A DNA stretch of 10,930 bases from an uncultured Clostridia bacterium (GTDB taxonomy: Bacteria; Bacillota; Clostridia; Oscillospirales; CAG-272): NCBI GenBank assembly GCA_946615525.1, contig CAMOHW010000015.1, positions 1 to 10,930 of the forward strand, given 5' to 3'. The notes beneath the pieces are model-generated. The model searched no databases. It had not been told where the DNA came from and worked only from the letters and a program-made list of their open reading frames with translations. Below are positions 285 through 10,930 of the stretch, piece after piece. Position 1 is the stretch's first letter. Every line of letters starts with the position of its first letter. A program made the translations under genes and the position numbers.

Positions 285-361
285 CGGGGTGTGGCACAGC
301 TTGGTAGTGCGCTTGGTTCGGGACCAAGAGGCCGCTGGTTCGAGTCCAGTCACTCCGACCA
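285..361 (+). tRNA. tRNA-Pro (anticodon CGG)
   Basis: A complete 77-base cloverleaf. The acceptor stem CGGGGTG pairs with CACTCCG (one G-T wobble). The anticodon arm is CTTGG, loop TTCGGGA, CCAAG, so the anticodon is CGG and reads CCG proline codons. The T arm carries GGTTCGAGTCC, and the 3' CCA is encoded (359-361). The first base pair C1-G72 and the G at position 37 after the anticodon fit bacterial tRNA-Pro. Translating this locus gives spurious peptides, so open frames over it are not genes. Confidence 0.96.
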
Positions 362-4441: not shown

Positions 4442-4477
4442 GTATAGGATTGGCACACTTTGGAAAGGAGCGCGGAT

Positions 4478-5059
4478 ATGGCAAAAATCAGCTGGAAAGG
4501 AAGCACCCTGCTCTCCCCGGTTCCCCCGGCTCTGGTGACCTGCGCCCATGGCGAGGAGATCAACATCATTACCATTGCCTGGACCGGGATTTTGAACAGT
4601 CAACCGCCCAAAACCTATATCTCGGTGCGCCCCACGCGCCACTCCTACCAAATGATTATGGAATCCCGCGAGTTTGCCATCAACCTGACGCCGAAAACCC
4701 TTGTCCGCGCCGCCGACTGGTGCGGCATTCACACCGGCGCAAAGGTAGATAAGTTTGCCCGTTGCCATCTGACGCCCGAACCGGCAAGTCAAATTGCCGC
4801 CCCGCTGATCGCCGAATGTCCCCTGGCGCTGGAATGCCGCGTGACCGACATTCTTCCGCTTGGTTCCCATACCATGTTTGTGGCCGACATTGTTGCCGTG
4901 GATGCCGACGAATCGCTTTTGGACGCAGACGGCAAACTGTGCATTGACCGCGCAAACCTTGTGGCGTATGCCCACGGCGATTATTACGAGCTGGGACGAC
5001 GGCTTGGCAAATTCGGTTTTTCGGTTGCCAAAAAGAAAAAACCGGCAAAAAAGTCCTGA
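4478..5059 (+). CDS. Flavin reductase-like domain protein
   Basis: A 193-residue cytoplasmic protein of the flavin reductase/DIM6-NTAB family, which binds FMN in a split-barrel fold and typically reduces flavin with NAD(P)H or acts as a small flavoprotein. Family landmarks are visible in order: SPVPPALVTC (13-22), ITIAWTG (31-37), PPKTYISVRPTRHS (43-56), FAIN (66-69), CGIHTGAKVDKF (82-93), GSHTMFVADI (129-138) and a C-terminal LGKFGFSV (176-183) followed by a Lys-rich tail KKKKPAKKS. The ATG at 4478 is preferred because AAAGGAG ends 7 bases before it; a TTG in frame at 4460 lies upstream of that ribosome site. It is the first gene after the promoter, with cysS starting 18 bases after its stop. 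The electron donor and partner are not evident. Full length for the family. Confidence 0.88.
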   Translation: MAKISWKGSTLLSPVPPALVTCAHGEEINIITIAWTGILNSQPPKTYISVRPTRHSYQMIMESREFAINLTPKTLVRAADWCGIHTGAKVDKFARCHLTPEPASQIAAPLIAECPLALECRVTDILPLGSHTMFVADIVAVDADESLLDADGKLCIDRANLVAYAHGDYYELGRRLGKFGFSVAKKKKPAKKS

Positions 5060-5077
5060 ACGAAAGGAGCTTTTACA

Positions 5078-6490
5078 ATGCTTTTGTATAATTCCCTCTC
5101 CCACCAAAAGGAAGAGTTCATTCCCAACGAGGCAGGCAAGGTCAGTATGTACACCTGCGGCCCCACCGTTTACCACTTTGCACATATCGGAAACCTGCGC
5201 ACCTACCTGATGGAAGATATTTTGGACCGCTACCTGCGCTACTCCGGCTATGACGTGACCCGCGTGATGAACATTACCGACGTAGGACACCTGACCTCGG
5301 ACGCCGACACCGGCGAGGACAAAATGCTCAAAGGCGCCAAGCGCGAGCACAAAACGGTCATGGAGATCGCCCGGTTTTACACCGACCGCTTTTTTGAGGA
5401 TTGCGAAAAACTCCGCATCCGCCGCCCGGAGGTCGTCAAACCGGCAACCGAGTGCATTGACGAGTTTATCCATGTAATTGAGGTGCTCCTGGAAAAGGGC
5501 TACGCCTATCTTGCCGGTGGAAACATCTATTTTGACACCTCTAAACTCGACCAGTATTACGTCTTTCACAATTTTGAAGAGGAAGACCTTGCCGTCGGCG
5601 TCCGCGAAGGGGTGGAAGAGGACGGCAACAAACGCAACAAAGCCGACTTTGTGCTTTGGTTCACCAAATCCAAGTTTGACGACCAGGAACTCAAATGGGA
5701 TAGCCCCTGGGGCGTTGGATACCCCGGCTGGCATATTGAATGCTCCTGCATCAGCATGAAGTATCTCGGCGAGCGCCTGGATATTCACTGCGGCGGCATT
5801 GACAACGCTTTCCCCCACCACACCAACGAAATCGCCCAATCCGAGGCGTATCTGGGGCATAAATGGTGCAATTACTGGTTCCATGTGCTCCACCTGAACA
5901 CCACCTCGGGCAAAATGAGCAAGTCCAGCGGCGAATTTTTGACCCTTTCGCTCCTGGAAGAAAAAGGATACTCCCCCTTGGTCTATCGCTTTTTCTGCCT
6001 GCAATCGCATTACCGCAAATCGTTGGTCTTCTCCTACGAGAACCTGGACAACGCCAAAACCGCCTACGAAAAGCTGATTTCTAAAATTGCACAGATCCCG
6101 GACGAGGGAACGATCGACCAAGCCGTATTGGACGAGCAAAAAGCGGCATTCCGGAAGGCCTTGGACAACGATTTGAACACCTCGCTTGCCGTGACCGCCG
6201 TTTATGATGTACTCAAACTGCAAACCAACGGTGCCACCAAACGCGCTCTGCTTGCCGATTTTGACCAGGTTTTGCAGCTGGGTCTTTTGGAAGGCAAAAA
6301 AGAGGAAAAAGATTCCGCCGGGGACAATGATTTGACCCGCGAGATTTTGGAGAAAATAGAAGCGCGTCGCGCCGCCAAAGCCGCAAAGAACTACGCCGAG
6401 GCAGACCGCATTCGCGCCGAACTCGCCGCGCGCGGGATCACATTGATTGACACAAAGGACGGAACCACTTTCCGTATGGAATCGAAATGA
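5078..6490 (+). CDS. cysS: Cysteinyl-tRNA synthetase
   Basis: A 470-residue class I aminoacyl-tRNA synthetase that charges tRNA-Cys with cysteine in the cytoplasm. The HIGH-type signature is HIGN (36-39) within CGPTVYHFAHIGN, and the KMSKS loop is at 279-283. The four zinc ligands that select cysteine are all present: Cys27, Cys222 (in WHIECS), His247 and Glu251, with the same 25- and 4-residue spacing as I recall for the E. coli enzyme. The segment between Cys27 and Cys222 is about 14 residues longer than in E. coli, mainly around 175-205 (KADFVLWFTKSKF), a variant I associate with some Firmicutes. The C-terminus (EARRAAKAAKNYAEADRIR) is the usual short DALR/anticodon region. The start has a good ribosome site (GAAAGGAG). 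Its TGA overlaps the next ATG by ATGA. No T-box leader precedes it, unlike many Firmicutes cysS genes. Confidence 0.97.
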   Translation: MLLYNSLSHQKEEFIPNEAGKVSMYTCGPTVYHFAHIGNLRTYLMEDILDRYLRYSGYDVTRVMNITDVGHLTSDADTGEDKMLKGAKREHKTVMEIARFYTDRFFEDCEKLRIRRPEVVKPATECIDEFIHVIEVLLEKGYAYLAGGNIYFDTSKLDQYYVFHNFEEEDLAVGVREGVEEDGNKRNKADFVLWFTKSKFDDQELKWDSPWGVGYPGWHIECSCISMKYLGERLDIHCGGIDNAFPHHTNEIAQSEAYLGHKWCNYWFHVLHLNTTSGKMSKSSGEFLTLSLLEEKGYSPLVYRFFCLQSHYRKSLVFSYENLDNAKTAYEKLISKIAQIPDEGTIDQAVLDEQKAAFRKALDNDLNTSLAVTAVYDVLKLQTNGATKRALLADFDQVLQLGLLEGKKEEKDSAGDNDLTREILEKIEARRAAKAAKNYAEADRIRAELAARGITLIDTKDGTTFRMESK

Positions 6491-7077
6491 CACCGAAAAT
6501 GCGAAAAATCTGGAATGGTTTTTGGCAGTTCATCGCCTACTCGCTGGTCGGCTTGGCAACGGCGTTTGTCGCCTACGGCACGCGCTGGGCAATTTTGAAC
6601 ATCTATGCCAAAATCTACGGCCTGGATCTGCAATCCACCGACCTTGCCATGGTTGGCGGAAGTTCGGTTTTGCGCTCGATCGCGCAAACCATTGGCTGGA
6701 CCACCGGGCTTCTCTTCTCCTTTATGCCCTACAAGATCCTTGTTTTTCGCAACAAGCAATGGGGCTGGAAACCGATCGGGCGACAATTTCTGCGATTTTT
6801 CATCTCTCGCATTTTGTGTTACTTTTTGGAACTGTTCCTTGCCGTTGGTCTTCCGGTGGCAATGCAGGCGGGCGGATACAAAGCATTTTGGCTGTTCGGC
6901 GAAGGCGGCATTCATATGACGGCAGACAATTTGACCATTGTCATTTCGGTCCTGGTCGTTACCGCCATCAACTACCCCATCGGAAAACTGCTTGTTTTCG
7001 GGAAAAAAGCACCGGAAAACGCCGAAAAACCTGCACCGTCCGATAGCGAAGGCGAAAAATTGCCCGACGAAGAATAG
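6487..7077 (+). CDS. GtrA-like four-helix membrane protein
   Basis: A 196-residue integral membrane protein matching the GtrA-like family, whose members are thought to help move lipid-linked sugars (polyprenyl-phosphate glucose or similar) across the membrane for surface glycan modification. Four hydrophobic segments lie near 14-40, 62-87, 101-124 and 148-170. Family hallmarks are the motif SFMPYKILVFRNK after helix 2 and the related INYPIGKLLVFGKK after helix 4. The cytoplasmic tail (174-196) is rich in Glu, Pro, Lys and Ser. It is slightly longer than the usual 120-150 residues, with an extra loop at about 125-147. The start codon overlaps the cysS stop (ATGA), so translation is probably coupled. 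It is the last gene before a terminator. No glycosyltransferase partner is next to it. Confidence 0.8.
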   Translation: MTPKMRKIWNGFWQFIAYSLVGLATAFVAYGTRWAILNIYAKIYGLDLQSTDLAMVGGSSVLRSIAQTIGWTTGLLFSFMPYKILVFRNKQWGWKPIGRQFLRFFISRILCYFLELFLAVGLPVAMQAGGYKAFWLFGEGGIHMTADNLTIVISVLVVTAINYPIGKLLVFGKKAPENAEKPAPSDSEGEKLPDEE

Positions 7078-7126: not shown

Positions 7127-7885
7127 TTATAGTTTCCAAACTCTGCCAACGCTTTTGTATTTGGCAGGCGCCAGGACGTTGTTGGGTAGTTTTTCCCAAT
7201 CGTCGGTGCCAACAATTTGGGCAATGGCGGCAAGATTTTCCGGCGTATCCACAATATTGGGGATCAGCGGAGTGCGGAACGTGTGCGGGATGCCGCTGTT
7301 TTTCAACCACAGGGCATTTTGAAGGATGCGCTCGTTGGAAACACCGGTCCATTTTTTGTGTTCTTCGGGATCGGCAAGTTTGAGGTCCATGTAAACAAAT
7401 TCGCACTTGGAAATCACCTTCTGAAAGGTCCCGGCGTCGGCAAAACCAGAGGTTTCAATGGCGCGGTCCACCCTGCCCTCCAAATGGTCAAGAAGTTCGC
7501 AGGCAAAGTCGGCTTGCAAAAGGGGTTCACCGCCCGAAAGCGTTACTCCGCCGCCCGAGGAGGAAAGCAGGTCGCACCCGCGCAAAAGGCGCCGGGCAAG
7601 GTCGGCGGCTTCCCACTCCTCGCCTTTGACGGTGACCAGATTCTTTGGGCAAATATGCAAGCACCGCCCAAAGGGTTGACATTCAGGGTGCGTGGAGGGC
7701 CTTTTGCAAAGTCCGCATTCCAGGCACCCGTTTTGTTTGATGTAGAGTTCCGGTTTGGGGTCCAGCCCCTCGGGGTTATGGCACCAGGCGCAACGCAAAG
7801 GGCAACCCTTGAAAAAAACGGTGGTGCGAATGCCGGCGCCGTCATTCAGGGCAAACTCCTTAATGTCAAAAATAATACCTTTCAT
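7127..7885 (-). CDS. Glycyl-radical-enzyme activating protein (radical SAM)
   Basis: A 252-residue radical SAM enzyme of the pyruvate formate-lyase activase type, which uses a [4Fe-4S] cluster and S-adenosylmethionine to install a glycyl radical on a partner enzyme under anaerobic conditions. The signature is Cys28-x3-Cys32-x2-Cys35, preceded by DGAGIRTTVFFKGCPLRC. A SAM-binding GGE motif is at 118-120 (TLSGGEP), and MDLK at 166-169 and the ending AKYKSVGR fit the family. An insert carries Cys54, 57, 60, 69, 75 and 79 (ending CP), resembling the ferredoxin-like domain of many glycyl-radical activases. It is shorter than the usual two-cluster form, so probably one extra cluster. No glycyl-radical enzyme gene is in the window, so the partner is unknown. 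The start is supported by a G-rich ribosome site (AGGGGGG) 7 bases upstream. Confidence 0.9.
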   Translation of the reverse strand: MKGIIFDIKEFALNDGAGIRTTVFFKGCPLRCAWCHNPEGLDPKPELYIKQNGCLECGLCKRPSTHPECQPFGRCLHICPKNLVTVKGEEWEAADLARRLLRGCDLLSSSGGGVTLSGGEPLLQADFACELLDHLEGRVDRAIETSGFADAGTFQKVISKCEFVYMDLKLADPEEHKKWTGVSNERILQNALWLKNSGIPHTFRTPLIPNIVDTPENLAAIAQIVGTDDWEKLPNNVLAPAKYKSVGRVWKL

Positions 7886-8029: not shown

Positions 8030-10591
8030 TTACGACTTGGTAAATGACCATGCAGTCAGCGTAATGGTACCGCTGGATGTGTTGGTACTACTCTTTACAA
8101 TAAAGTGATACGTGTAGTTTGCCAAATCGCTTGCCGTTACCGTAATGCTACCCGATTTGCCGCTGGTGGTGGTAACCGCGTTGCTGTTGTTGGCACACTT
8201 GACGAGAGTGGCCGTGGTGGTCTTACCGGAAGTAGAAACCGCATACGTATAGGTTCCCGGGCCGCTGAGCTTCATCTGCTCGGTCAGTTCAATGGAGTAG
8301 CCCCATCTATTGGAAGCGGACTTGGAGGTGTTGAAATCAACCTTGAACTGTCCGCCCGAGATATAACCAAGGCAGTTGTAAGAGGTGTAACGCGACCAAG
8401 AACGGATAGGACCTGCAACGTAGTCAGCGCCGCCGGTGTAGTTTGCCGTTTTCGCAGCCGGAATGGAAACATGTGCCGGCGTATCGGTGCTGTCGTAGGC
8501 AAAGTTGATGGTCATGCCCGAAATAGCAGAACCCGTGCCTTCACTATTGGCACCAATGTAATTTGAGCCGATCTTCATACTGGAACTATCATTGTTGGGA
8601 CCAATGCGGTGACCGCCAATGTAAAGGTTGGTAAAGTTGAAGATATAGCCGGTGGAACCGCTTTCCATTGCGTTATTCTGGCTGGAGTAGGTGCCGGCAG
8701 TAAAGCTCTTTTTGGAGCCCGTGGTGTAGCGGGTAACCATGTTCTTAATGTTGAAGGTCTTGGTTTCCGAGCCGTTGCTGCCGTTATCACCAAAGATGAG
8801 CGGCGTCTTGACGCAGTCAAGCGCGTCAAGGCCGGTGATATTAACGGTCATAGCGCCGGAGTTATCCTGGTGGACATTGATGAGGTTATCGTCAGCGCGG
8901 AAGATGTAAATATTCTCCAACGTTGCCTGGCAGGAATACTGCGGGTAAACAGCTGCGCAGGTGGTACCAATGGTAATGTTCTCGTAGCTTGTGCCGCTGC
9001 CGGAACCGCCGGTCATGACCAGCGCGTTATCACCACAGTAAACGAACGAGTTTTTCACCTCGTGGTTGCCCGTAACCATAAAGCCGTCGGTGGACATTTC
9101 GGTAGAAAGAAGTTTCACATGGTTGATTTGCGTGCCGCTTGACTGACAGATCCAAACGTTGTAGTTGCGGCTATCCAGCACTTTTATATCGTCCATGTAG
9201 AAGCTGTAACCGTAATTGATGACGGTTCCTTCCCACGCTTCAACCGTGTTGGTCGCGCCGGTATCAAAGTTATACACGTCAACCGTGGTATATTTTTGGG
9301 TGGGGCTGGAAGCGGTATAATCCGAGAACGGATCCAGAATAGCACCGCGGCCGTAAATGTGCGTGTTGTGGGCCTGGTGGTTGGCATCTACACGGACATT
9401 GAGAATGCGCTTTTTCAGGATTGCGCCGGGGGCAAGATAAACTTTGACATTATGGTTGTTGATCACCATGTATTCGTTGCTGTTGCCCGCATAGGTGACC
9501 AGGTTGGGCTGGTCAGCCGGAAGGGTGATTTGGTTATCGCCCTCTACGTAAACCACATTGGTTGCACCCTTGGTGGGAACATCGTATTCCATGTGATCCG
9601 GGAAGACAGCAAGCGCGGTCTTGTAGTCGTCATCCAAAATGACTACGAAATACTCATGCTGGCTTACGGTAACCGAAATGGTACCGGTGGAAGCGTCAAA
9701 GCTGGAAGCAAAGCCCTTGGAAGTAGGAGCTACAACATAGCTTGTAAACTTCTTGTTGACTTTGATGTTCACCGTTACGGCTTCAAACTCATAAGCAAAT
9801 TCGCAGAACCGGCGGTTGGAGTCCATAACACCCAGCGAACGGCTTGTGGAAGTTACGTCATACTGCGAATAAGACGCGCACTCGTTGTAAACGACCAAAT
9901 TCTTGGTTGTGGAGCCCTGGGTAACCGAAACGGTGTAAAGGCCGTCGCGGTCAATGGAGTTGGGATATTCGGGATAGGTTTGCAGAAGACCAAAGTGTGC
10001 GCCGTTTACCAGAATATCTGAGCCGACTTCGTTATACTTGCTAATAACGGTGGAAATAAACGCGGGAACCGAGCCGCCCTTATCCTGGATGCCCTTTGCC
10101 ACCGTGTAGATGGAGCGTTTTTCATACAGCGGGCTGTTGGAATAGGTGTAATTGTTGCCGCTGGTATTGACATAAGCTTTGGCTACCAGCGTGGTGCCGT
10201 ATTCTTCTTCCGGCATGCCGGTCAAAACAACGGTAAAGTAGTAGTAATTGCTATTGTAGGTCAACCCTGCGGCGGTAACCGAGGTATCCGGCATCAGATT
10301 GGCTGCCGGAACTTTTCTTACGCCGGTGGTGTTATATGCCAGGGTTTGGTTGCTTGCCAGCATGGTTTGCGGAAGAAGCAAGAATCCAAAGTTGGCGCCG
10401 GTGCCGGTGGTAAGCGTGTAAGCGCTCTTTTTCACGCGGCCGATAAAACGGATGCCCTGGGTGCCCGTGGTGCGGATCTGCGCACCCAGGACCTCCAGTG
10501 TCGGCTCATCAGCCGACACCGGGAAGATCGCAAATGTGCTGATGAGCATCAGCAACGCGAGGAACAGGCTTAAAAATCTCATTTTTCTCAT
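8030..10591 (-). CDS. Secreted right-handed beta-helix protein, GH28/GH49-like
   Basis: An 853-residue secreted protein, probably acting on a polysaccharide outside the cell. A signal peptide (1-27, cleavage after VSA) starts at the ATG at 10591, 9 bases from AAGGAGGA; an internal Met4 is possible. Residues 30-175 form a beta-rich domain (GIRFIGRV, then FTVVLTGMPEEEYGTTLVAKAYV) often seen in clostridial surface proteins. Residues about 190-345 look like a beta-sandwich, and 345-700 a pectin-lyase-like beta-helix opened by VKVYLAPGAILKKRIL and IYGRGAILD. This order resembles dextranase-type GH49 and polygalacturonase-type enzymes. Candidate catalytic residues are Asp502 (TDG) and Asp521 (GDN), 19 apart; the usual second Asp of the DD pair is Asn522. 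Residues 735-853 resemble a Ser/Thr-rich binding domain. No membrane anchor. Substrate unknown. Confidence 0.8.
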   Translation of the reverse strand: MRKMRFLSLFLALLMLISTFAIFPVSADEPTLEVLGAQIRTTGTQGIRFIGRVKKSAYTLTTGTGANFGFLLLPQTMLASNQTLAYNTTGVRKVPAANLMPDTSVTAAGLTYNSNYYYFTVVLTGMPEEEYGTTLVAKAYVNTSGNNYTYSNSPLYEKRSIYTVAKGIQDKGGSVPAFISTVISKYNEVGSDILVNGAHFGLLQTYPEYPNSIDRDGLYTVSVTQGSTTKNLVVYNECASYSQYDVTSTSRSLGVMDSNRRFCEFAYEFEAVTVNIKVNKKFTSYVVAPTSKGFASSFDASTGTISVTVSQHEYFVVILDDDYKTALAVFPDHMEYDVPTKGATNVVYVEGDNQITLPADQPNLVTYAGNSNEYMVINNHNVKVYLAPGAILKKRILNVRVDANHQAHNTHIYGRGAILDPFSDYTASSPTQKYTTVDVYNFDTGATNTVEAWEGTVINYGYSFYMDDIKVLDSRNYNVWICQSSGTQINHVKLLSTEMSTDGFMVTGNHEVKNSFVYCGDNALVMTGGSGSGTSYENITIGTTCAAVYPQYSCQATLENIYIFRADDNLINVHQDNSGAMTVNITGLDALDCVKTPLIFGDNGSNGSETKTFNIKNMVTRYTTGSKKSFTAGTYSSQNNAMESGSTGYIFNFTNLYIGGHRIGPNNDSSSMKIGSNYIGANSEGTGSAISGMTINFAYDSTDTPAHVSIPAAKTANYTGGADYVAGPIRSWSRYTSYNCLGYISGGQFKVDFNTSKSASNRWGYSIELTEQMKLSGPGTYTYAVSTSGKTTTATLVKCANNSNAVTTTSGKSGSITVTASDLANYTYHFIVKSSTNTSSGTITLTAWSFTKS

Positions 10592-10600
10592 TTCTTCTAT

Positions 10601-10608
10601 TCCTCCTT
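10601..10608 (-). promoter_or_regulatory. Ribosome binding site overlapping the stop codon of the small peptide
   Basis: AAGGAGGA (10608 down to 10601) is a near-perfect ribosome site for the beta-helix gene and shares bases with the TAA stop (10609-10607) of the 42-residue peptide. Translation of the two genes is therefore likely to be coupled. Confidence 0.75.
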
Positions 10609-10735
10609 AAGTATAAATGCCGTTCCAACCGGAATCCCAGCCGGTGTCGTTGTCCGAAGCGGTCAAAAGATCGACACAATCAACCGGGAAAACCAGGATT
10701 TCAGGAGTTTGATACTTTTTCAATTCGTTCATCAT
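10607..10735 (-). CDS. Small peptide of 42 residues, function unknown
   Basis: A short open frame with good coding signals. AAGGAG (10745-10750) lies 9 bases before ATG 10735, and TAA ends at 10607, 15 bases before the beta-helix gene start. The product begins MMNELKKYQTPEILVF, has DCVDLLTAS at 19-27 and ends DTGWDSGWNGIYT. It has no signal peptide or membrane segment. The layout (short basic start, KY-x-TPEI-x-VF, then D-x-LLTAS and an acidic, Trp/Gly-rich tail) resembles small unannotated peptides I recall from gut Clostridia; I cannot verify this by search. One Cys (20) and two Trp (32, 36). It sits between two genes for secreted proteins, 20 bases after the first. It might be a secreted or modified peptide, or a coupling leader. 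An ATG at 10740 is a 2-codon dead end (ATG CAA TGA). Confidence 0.65.
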   Translation of the reverse strand: MMNELKKYQTPEILVFPVDCVDLLTASDNDTGWDSGWNGIYT

Positions 10736-10755
10736 TGCATCTTTCTCCTTCCTTA

Positions 10756-10930
10756 TTAATTAAATACAGTGCTGTAGGTGGCAATGCCCATATCGCCAAG
10801 GTTTGTGCCGACATATGGAATTGCAACCAAAGCTTGTGCCCGGCGGGCATCTGTATTCAGGTTGTAAACAACTGCGTTCACCGTGTAGGTGTTATCACCG
10901 TTGTCCTTATACTTGGTAGCGCTTACTTTC
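10756..10930 (-). CDS. Extracellular protein, C-terminal fragment (5' end outside window)
   Basis: The last 57 residues of a protein, stop TAA at 10758-10756, open to the right edge. The translation (KVSATKYKDNGDNTYTVNAV..., ending ATYSTVFN) is rich in Tyr, Thr, Asn and Val with alternating beta-strand pattern. The part TYTVNAVVYNL followed by ALVAIPYVG resembles FTVVLTGM and TTLVAKAYV in the N-terminal domain of the 853-residue protein, so both may carry the same beta-rich surface domain. It has no C-terminal anchor. It is followed 20 bases later by the small peptide gene, so it is probably the upstream member of the same operon. Full identity cannot be given from this fragment. Confidence 0.6.
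   Translation of the reverse strand, partial: KVSATKYKDNGDNTYTVNAVVYNLNTDARRAQALVAIPYVGTNLGDMGIATYSTVFN

Follow-up and report, generated by a model that had tools for sequence, protein, structure and literature searches.

A genome-scattered family of predicted LPP-like precursor peptides beside secreted-protein genes in Clostridia

In the genome of an uncultured Clostridia bacterium (G000, 61% complete), a 42-residue open reading frame is wedged between two other genes, raising the question of whether so short a frame is a gene at all and, if it is, what its product has to do with the secreted protein encoded next to it. A first-pass annotation of the window (the whole stretch of DNA analysed, 10,930 nucleotides) had taken the frame for a peptide gene and, from its position, suggested a link to a neighbouring secreted "beta-helix enzyme", with a modified peptide among the options.

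The peptide gene and its family

The ORF was borne out, on the minus strand (the annotation had given none). Its product, MMNELKKYQTPEILVFPVDCVDLLTASDNDTGWDSGWNGIYT, has no signal peptide of its own. The translation signals are those that the first-pass annotation had described: GGAG of the Shine-Dalgarno-like GGAAGGAG stands 9 nt from the ATG, and the last A of the TAA stop codon falls within the AGGAGG of the next gene, whose product indeed begins like a secreted protein; the upstream neighbour, also called secreted in that annotation, reaches into the window with its C-terminal end only (Table 1).

A second copy in the same genome (G000:C80) encodes an identical protein, and the two ORFs (97.7% identical) differ by 3 synonymous and 0 nonsynonymous substitutions; the flanking DNA has diverged more, with 82% of aligned positions identical in the 400 nt downstream and 56% in the 170 nt upstream. 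Compared with a homologue from another genome (G013:C2), the window peptide gave a dS of 0.80 and a dN of 0.15, and in paralogue pairs of G013 and G059 with computable dS, dN was well below dS too. These substitution patterns mark the ORF as a genuine gene, as the annotation had supposed, with its frame under purifying selection; neither a lack of conserved homologues nor a lack of purifying selection, two results that the annotation had named as refuting it, was observed. Its shortness and its absence from Pfam and NCBIfam, searches of which gave nothing usable, would suit a chance ORF between two genes, a reading that the homologues and the purifying selection rule out and to which we assign practically no weight. 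Weak matches to RsxB and CutA, far under the cut-offs of those families, were rejected as identities of the peptide.

Table 1. Features of the peptide locus, in positions of the window
Feature	Position	Strand	Basis
42-residue ORF, predicted LPP-like precursor peptide	10607..10735	minus	ORF, second copy, family profile, substitution rates
Shine-Dalgarno-like GGAAGGAG of the peptide gene	10745..10752	minus	read from sequence
Peptide stop codon TAA, overlapping the AGGAGG of the downstream gene	10602..10609	minus	last A common to both
Predicted leader, residues 1-25	10661..10735	minus	family alignment and LPP cleavage after T-1 (PMC13381572, available part)
YxxP motif (Y8-Q-T-P11), predicted RRE-binding motif	10703..10714	minus	conservation; binding role from PMC13381572 (available part)
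Predicted core, residues 26-42, acidic, Trp/Gly rich	10610..10660	minus	family alignment and tally
Ser27, predicted phosphorylation site	10655..10657	minus	Ser conservation; LppK takes Ser, not Thr or Tyr
Downstream neighbour, secreted protein, 853 aa, signal-peptide-like N-terminus	8030..10591	minus	
Peptide-proximal N-terminal "IRF" domain of the 853-aa neighbour, aa 35-164	10100..10489	minus	profile comparison
Upstream gene, C-terminal end only inside the window (stop at 10756; gene cut by the window end)	10756..10929	minus	

The rest of the window holds a tRNA-Pro (CGG; 285-361, plus strand), an ordinary series of flavin reductase-like, cysteinyl-tRNA synthetase and GtrA-like genes (4460-7077, plus strand) and a radical SAM protein (PF04055) with a 4Fe-4S domain (7127-7885, minus strand). 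By eye the latter looks like a glycyl-radical activating enzyme, and there is no sign that the peptide is a substrate of it.

Relatives of the peptide are numerous. A single-sequence search of 60 genomes, its own included, gave a match at E≤10 in 24 of them; with a family profile, 46 of the same genomes matched at E≤1 and 37 at E≤1e-3, and nine genomes each carry 12 to 40 family-profile matches. In the protein database the single sequence retrieved itself and one 86% relative only, and the family profile retrieved 33 unnamed proteins without Pfam domains. Judged by these searches, the window peptide belongs to a conserved, multi-copy, genome-scattered family in Clostridia, often with many genes per genome. 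We recognized no earlier account of such scattered precursors among titles and abstract openings, a survey covering few subscription journals or preprints.

Met, Tyr, Asp and Ser are invariant, and Pro and Thr nearly so, in a 36-member alignment, and the family consensus reads M-K-K-x-Y-x-x-P-(about 10)-D-[ILV]-[ILV]-T-x-S, followed by a variable acidic tail. Among 94 distinct peptides, drawn from 111 HMM-found ORFs (2 off the spacing pattern), Ser was present in 92, Tyr in 88, Pro in 81 and Thr in 81, a tally in which HMM and pattern both favour the motif, the pattern fixing the first position (Y/F/H) and the acidic position but not P, T or S. The conserved Ser was never replaced by Thr in any of the 94, and 84 of them have net acidic tails.

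This layout recalls LPPs (linear polyphosphorylated peptides), RiPPs from Bacilli described in 2026 without known function (PMC13381572). In the available part of that description, the LPP gene set comprises six genes: the RRE LppB binds the YxxP leader, the kinase LppK repeatedly phosphorylates Ser3 of the core and accepts neither Thr nor Tyr, and the peptidase LppS, aided by LppB, cuts after T-1. Bacilli lpp clusters, according to the same text, hold 1-3 precursors inside capsule loci, and the published precursor motif is YxxPxVLxHQxIxFETxxS. The window peptide has the YxxP in its leader (Y8..P11), and a family Ser that is never Thr (92 of 94 peptides having Ser) agrees with the Ser-only activity of LppK. 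The full LPP motif, however, is absent: the window reads YQTPEILVFPVDCVDLLTAS, with no HQ, no FET and the Ser at Y+19 instead of Y+18, and the family has D-[ILV]-[ILV]-T-x-S where LPPs have F-E-T-x-x-S. Because of this Ser spacing and the missing FET block, we class the peptide as LPP-like and not as an LPP proper.

The kinase-RRE-protease cassette

Since the YxxP leader resembles lasso-type leaders, we searched the 60 genomes for modifying enzymes. A PqqD-type RRE (PF05402) matched in 45 of them, in 39 above the cut-off. Among 20 PqqD neighbourhoods examined, with crude gene calls that missed some genes, an HprK-like kinase was clustered in 15, PqqD in 12 and a signal-peptidase-like protease in 12. 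The HprK-like kinase, stand-alone PqqD and signal-peptidase-like protease, side by side, form a cassette, accompanied in some genomes by an NTP transferase (PF14907) and an ABC exporter. The cassette PqqD scored 64-72 bits against a cut-off of 23.4, and in G013 the RRE matched by sequence both the lasso RRE TbiB1 (E 5e-7) and the LppB structure 9x8z (E 0.0038). The protease matched an archaeal-type signal peptidase, under the curated cut-off. The kinase is weakly recognized by sequence; its fold model (pLDDT 91) gave HPr kinase/phosphorylase (HprK/P) and PEP carboxykinase as top PDB matches. Among 80 named kinase loci, the best 80 of at least 583, PqqD was found in 57, the protease in 56, the NTP transferase in 17 and the peptide in 15, and all 18 peptide ORFs in those 15 loci lie on the kinase's strand. 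Two named isolates, Ruminococcus flavefaciens Y1 (L208) and Coprococcus catus VPIC661 (L220), have kinase, PqqD, protease and NTP transferase with no profile match to the peptide at the locus; they possibly carry more divergent precursors.

The peptide family occurs near-exclusively in genomes that have the kinase. The peptide (E≤1e-3) was found in 35 of 37 kinase-positive genomes of the 60 versus 2 of 23 kinase-negative ones, with corresponding counts of 28/28 versus 2/7 inside the genus and 7/9 versus 0/16 outside it; the genomes are related, so that Fisher values for co-occurrence overstate independence and the p-values are too small. Across 245 genomes sampled evenly from the class (the window's own left out), the kinase was present in 25 of 26 peptide-bearing genomes, the peptide stood alone in 1, and 207 genomes had neither. 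No peptide match was obtained in 12 of the 37 genomes with an LPP-type kinase, a class that we set at 200 bits or more, plus the split G234, after two score groups had been seen. At a raw kinase cut of E≤1e-15, 69 genomes of the class-wide set were positive, 25 of those with the peptide. A second HprK-like subfamily in this set (for example in G067, G082 and G137), with ORFs of about 290-320 aa scoring 80-187 bits, aligns to the model only over its C-terminal two thirds and does not track the peptide.

Some genomes depart from this rule and count against the LPP-like reading. G020, which is 94% complete, has 40 peptide-profile matches, and neither kinase nor PqqD was found in it, which would mean either a single gap in the assembly or a genuinely different way of maturing the peptides; in G001 and G291 peptides are present and the kinase was not found.

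Some members of the family are physically linked to the cassette. In nine genomes (G009, G027, G054, G057, G099, G135, G138, G253 and G258) the kinase gene is preceded, at a distance of 1 kb or less and in the same orientation, by a peptide gene. A looser motif search of the DNA before kinase genes was noisy, with hits in the expected orientation at 15 of 77 loci and in the opposite one at 5 of 77, and the HMM counts were therefore used. In G258 and G135 the gene order is signal-peptide gene, peptide, kinase, PqqD, protease, ABC exporter and NTP_transf_5, so that exporter and NTP transferase stand in one operon with the peptide, as in the six-gene LPP set given in the available part of its description. 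More widely, the Clostridia system has in common with LPPs, as far as that text (PMC13381572) describes them, the YxxP leader, the variable core, a discrete RRE, an HprK-like kinase and a signal-peptidase-like leader peptidase. In the same-genus cassettes examined, unlike in the LPP set, no exporter was recognized, and an NTP transferase was recognized beside that of G009 only.

Most peptide copies have no adjoining cassette gene, and the window's own copy sits outside any cassette, on another contig than the kinase fragment of its genome. This fragment comprises the first 110 positions of the kinase and lies at a contig edge (C151:1-330), and the gene beside it is 83% identical to a gene flanking the G013 kinase. 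For these two reasons the cassette is probably present in the window's genome and cut off by the assembly, in which, at 61% completeness, a PqqD search gave no match. Taken across the genomes, the tracking of the cassette by the family supports the modified-peptide option of the first-pass annotation.

An ordinary lasso peptide precursor would have much of this equipment: the YxxP leader, a Thr near the predicted cut, the PqqD-type RRE and the HprK-like kinase are all found in paeninodin-type clusters. Lasso cores usually combine a Gly, Cys, Ala or Ser ring opener with an Asp or Glu at positions 7-9 in a conserved place; the predicted core here, however, begins A-S and lacks the combination of usual ring opener and conserved Asp/Glu place. 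Nor was a proper lasso protease B2 found, PF13471 being above cut-off in only 2 of the 60 genomes, as partial matches in long ORFs, with none above it within the genus and none in the cassettes examined, and by eye no macrolactam cyclase (asparagine-synthase-like) was noticed in those cassettes. We regard a lasso precursor as very improbable, although the available part of PMC13381572 gives paeninodin-type clusters a YxxP/WxxP leader, a PqqD-type RRE, an HprK-like kinase and an NTP transferase, the first three and, in some genomes, the fourth being shared with the system described here. Predicted ruminal lasso clusters (PMC7533575), annotated with lasB/lasC, include HPr kinase, PqqD and nucleotidyltransferase genes and thus share the type of habitat and part of the gene names; in the available part of that report we found no mention of scattered peptides beside secreted genes. 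An LPP-like precursor remains the reading that we prefer.

Secreted neighbours

The suggested link to secreted proteins is supported by the family. In four genomes, 40 of 47 peptides adjoin a signal-peptide gene versus 43 of 238 control genes under the same rule in the same genomes, signal peptides being scored by a home-made hydrophobicity rule and not by SignalP; the count covers 47 of 59 matches (G013, 11/12; G030, 13/20; G252, 11/15; G073, 12/12), and 7 of the 47 have no such neighbour by that rule. The partner proteins are diverse and include GDSL esterase, cohesin, laminin-G-like, lectin-like, Ig-like, leucine-rich-repeat and InlB-type repeat proteins. Scattered precursors and adjacency to signal-peptide genes are new with respect to LPPs: the Clostridia precursors are scattered, many per genome, beside secreted-protein genes, whereas LPP precursors, in the available description, lie within the clusters.

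The peptide could accordingly be thought of as an unmodified small partner of the secreted protein (a chaperone, export pilot or inhibitor) that undergoes no RiPP processing. Tight adjacency to secreted genes, the missing signal peptide on the peptide itself and the many copies with no cassette gene beside them would all fit such a role. Conservation, however, falls on the RRE-type YxxP leader and the Ser while the tail varies, the occurrence of the family tracks the kinase and not secreted proteins generally, and some copies lie inside cassette operons. We consider an unmodified partner unlikely, and an LPP-like precursor the better account of the same adjacency.

The arrangement of the two genes differs between genomes. 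In G013 the peptide stands mostly before the secreted gene, and in the window it stands between two genes; in G252 the secreted gene is upstream of the peptide in 9 of 11 cases and downstream in 2, in G073 upstream in 9 of 12 and downstream in none, and the peptide in these two genomes mostly follows the secreted gene at 13-48 nt. If the peptide were a translated leader acting in cis on expression of the secreted gene behind it, translational coupling would account for the merged stop codon and ribosome site, and the close position before a secreted gene, seen in the window and for the majority of G013 copies, would fit as well. The prevalence of upstream partners in G252 and G073 argues against such control, as do the copies that head or sit within cassette operons and the strong amino-acid conservation with low dN, leaving cis control less likely still than an unmodified partner, and both well behind an LPP-like precursor.

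The partner need not be of one kind. The identical peptide of G000:C80 precedes a signal-peptide gene encoding a GDSL-type esterase, and the neighbours of the two identical peptides have only an N-terminal domain in common, followed by different catalytic modules, which argues that the link is not to the beta-helix enzyme proposed at first. The beta-helix fold was itself unconfirmed: the 853-aa neighbour has no Pfam or PDB sequence match, and its structure model is poor (pLDDT 43).

The common N-terminal domain ("IRF"; aa 35-164 of the 853-aa neighbour) has no Pfam match. It is present in the C80 neighbour and also at the C-terminus of the G030 partners, where the peptide genes are downstream, so that in either arrangement the domain occupies the end of the protein nearer the peptide gene. 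The window domain and the C-terminal domain of the G030 partners align with an hhalign probability of 94 (E 1.5e-7), from separately built profiles. A first profile of the N-terminal domain covered 4 proteins only, and a broader one, seeded with 13 partners, returned those 13, one further partner (L102) and 1 of 314 control proteins; because this count returned mainly its own seeds, we base the sharing of the domain on the comparison of the two separate profiles. In the L102 partner the domain lies at the far end, facing away from the peptide gene, and the single control protein has no adjoining peptide by motif. The C-termini of the G252 and G073 partners resemble each other (E 7.8e-6) and are not clearly the "IRF" domain. 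In G013 a peptide subgroup (PPEILKISIDLQDILTTSPGSSEL; L036, L037, L038 and L039) precedes proteins with a different common N-terminal region (IVGHNLSLDDSVQ), and the one tested, the 401-aa protein of L036, has a cohesin domain.

Proposed working and meaning

With a probability that we put at roughly 0.7, the peptide is an LPP-like RiPP precursor of a scattered family, processed by the RRE, the HprK-like kinase and the protease, its acidic tail likely acting with the secreted neighbour. The peptide would be made together with that neighbour, and the stand-alone PqqD-type RRE would bind its YxxP leader, as LPP leaders are bound. By the same analogy, the HprK-like kinase likely phosphorylates the near-invariant Ser27, and the signal-peptidase-like protease likely cuts near T25-S27; a cut after T25 is taken from LPPs, and one nearer Ser27 is possible. 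We infer that the cassette, encoded once elsewhere, would act in trans on the scattered copies, as ProcM does on prochlorosins, whose precursors are scattered over the genome, are served by one promiscuous enzyme and are of unknown function (PMC10783134, available part). The likeness, one modifying system with many scattered precursors, is in logic only; lanthionine chemistry and a Nif11 leader distinguish prochlorosins, which are not a relative (PMC10783134). The freed acidic tail would then be exported and act together with the secreted partner.

More tentatively, the mature peptide might accompany, outside the cell, the secreted protein with which it is co-expressed, and be recognized via or together with the peptide-proximal domain of that protein. 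A wider picture, in which we place equally limited trust, is a genome-wide companion system: one cassette would mature precursors scattered in their tens over the genome, every one of them encoded together with an extracellular protein of its own that degrades fibre or serves adhesion. The phosphopeptide might then act outside the cell on or with this protein, via the shared peptide-proximal domain, as a tag, an anchor or a signal of which secreted protein is made.

RiPP mining restricted to the surroundings of modifying enzymes would miss most precursors of this Clostridia family. A precursor paired with a secreted-protein gene offers a handle on the question of LPP function. The predicted trimming and phosphorylation by one enzyme set would give Clostridia genome-wide modified peptides tied to extracellular proteins and, with GDSL esterase, cohesin, lectin-like, Ig-like and leucine-rich-repeat proteins among the partners, the peptides may serve extracellular machinery and may thus belong to how Clostridia deploy or sense it.
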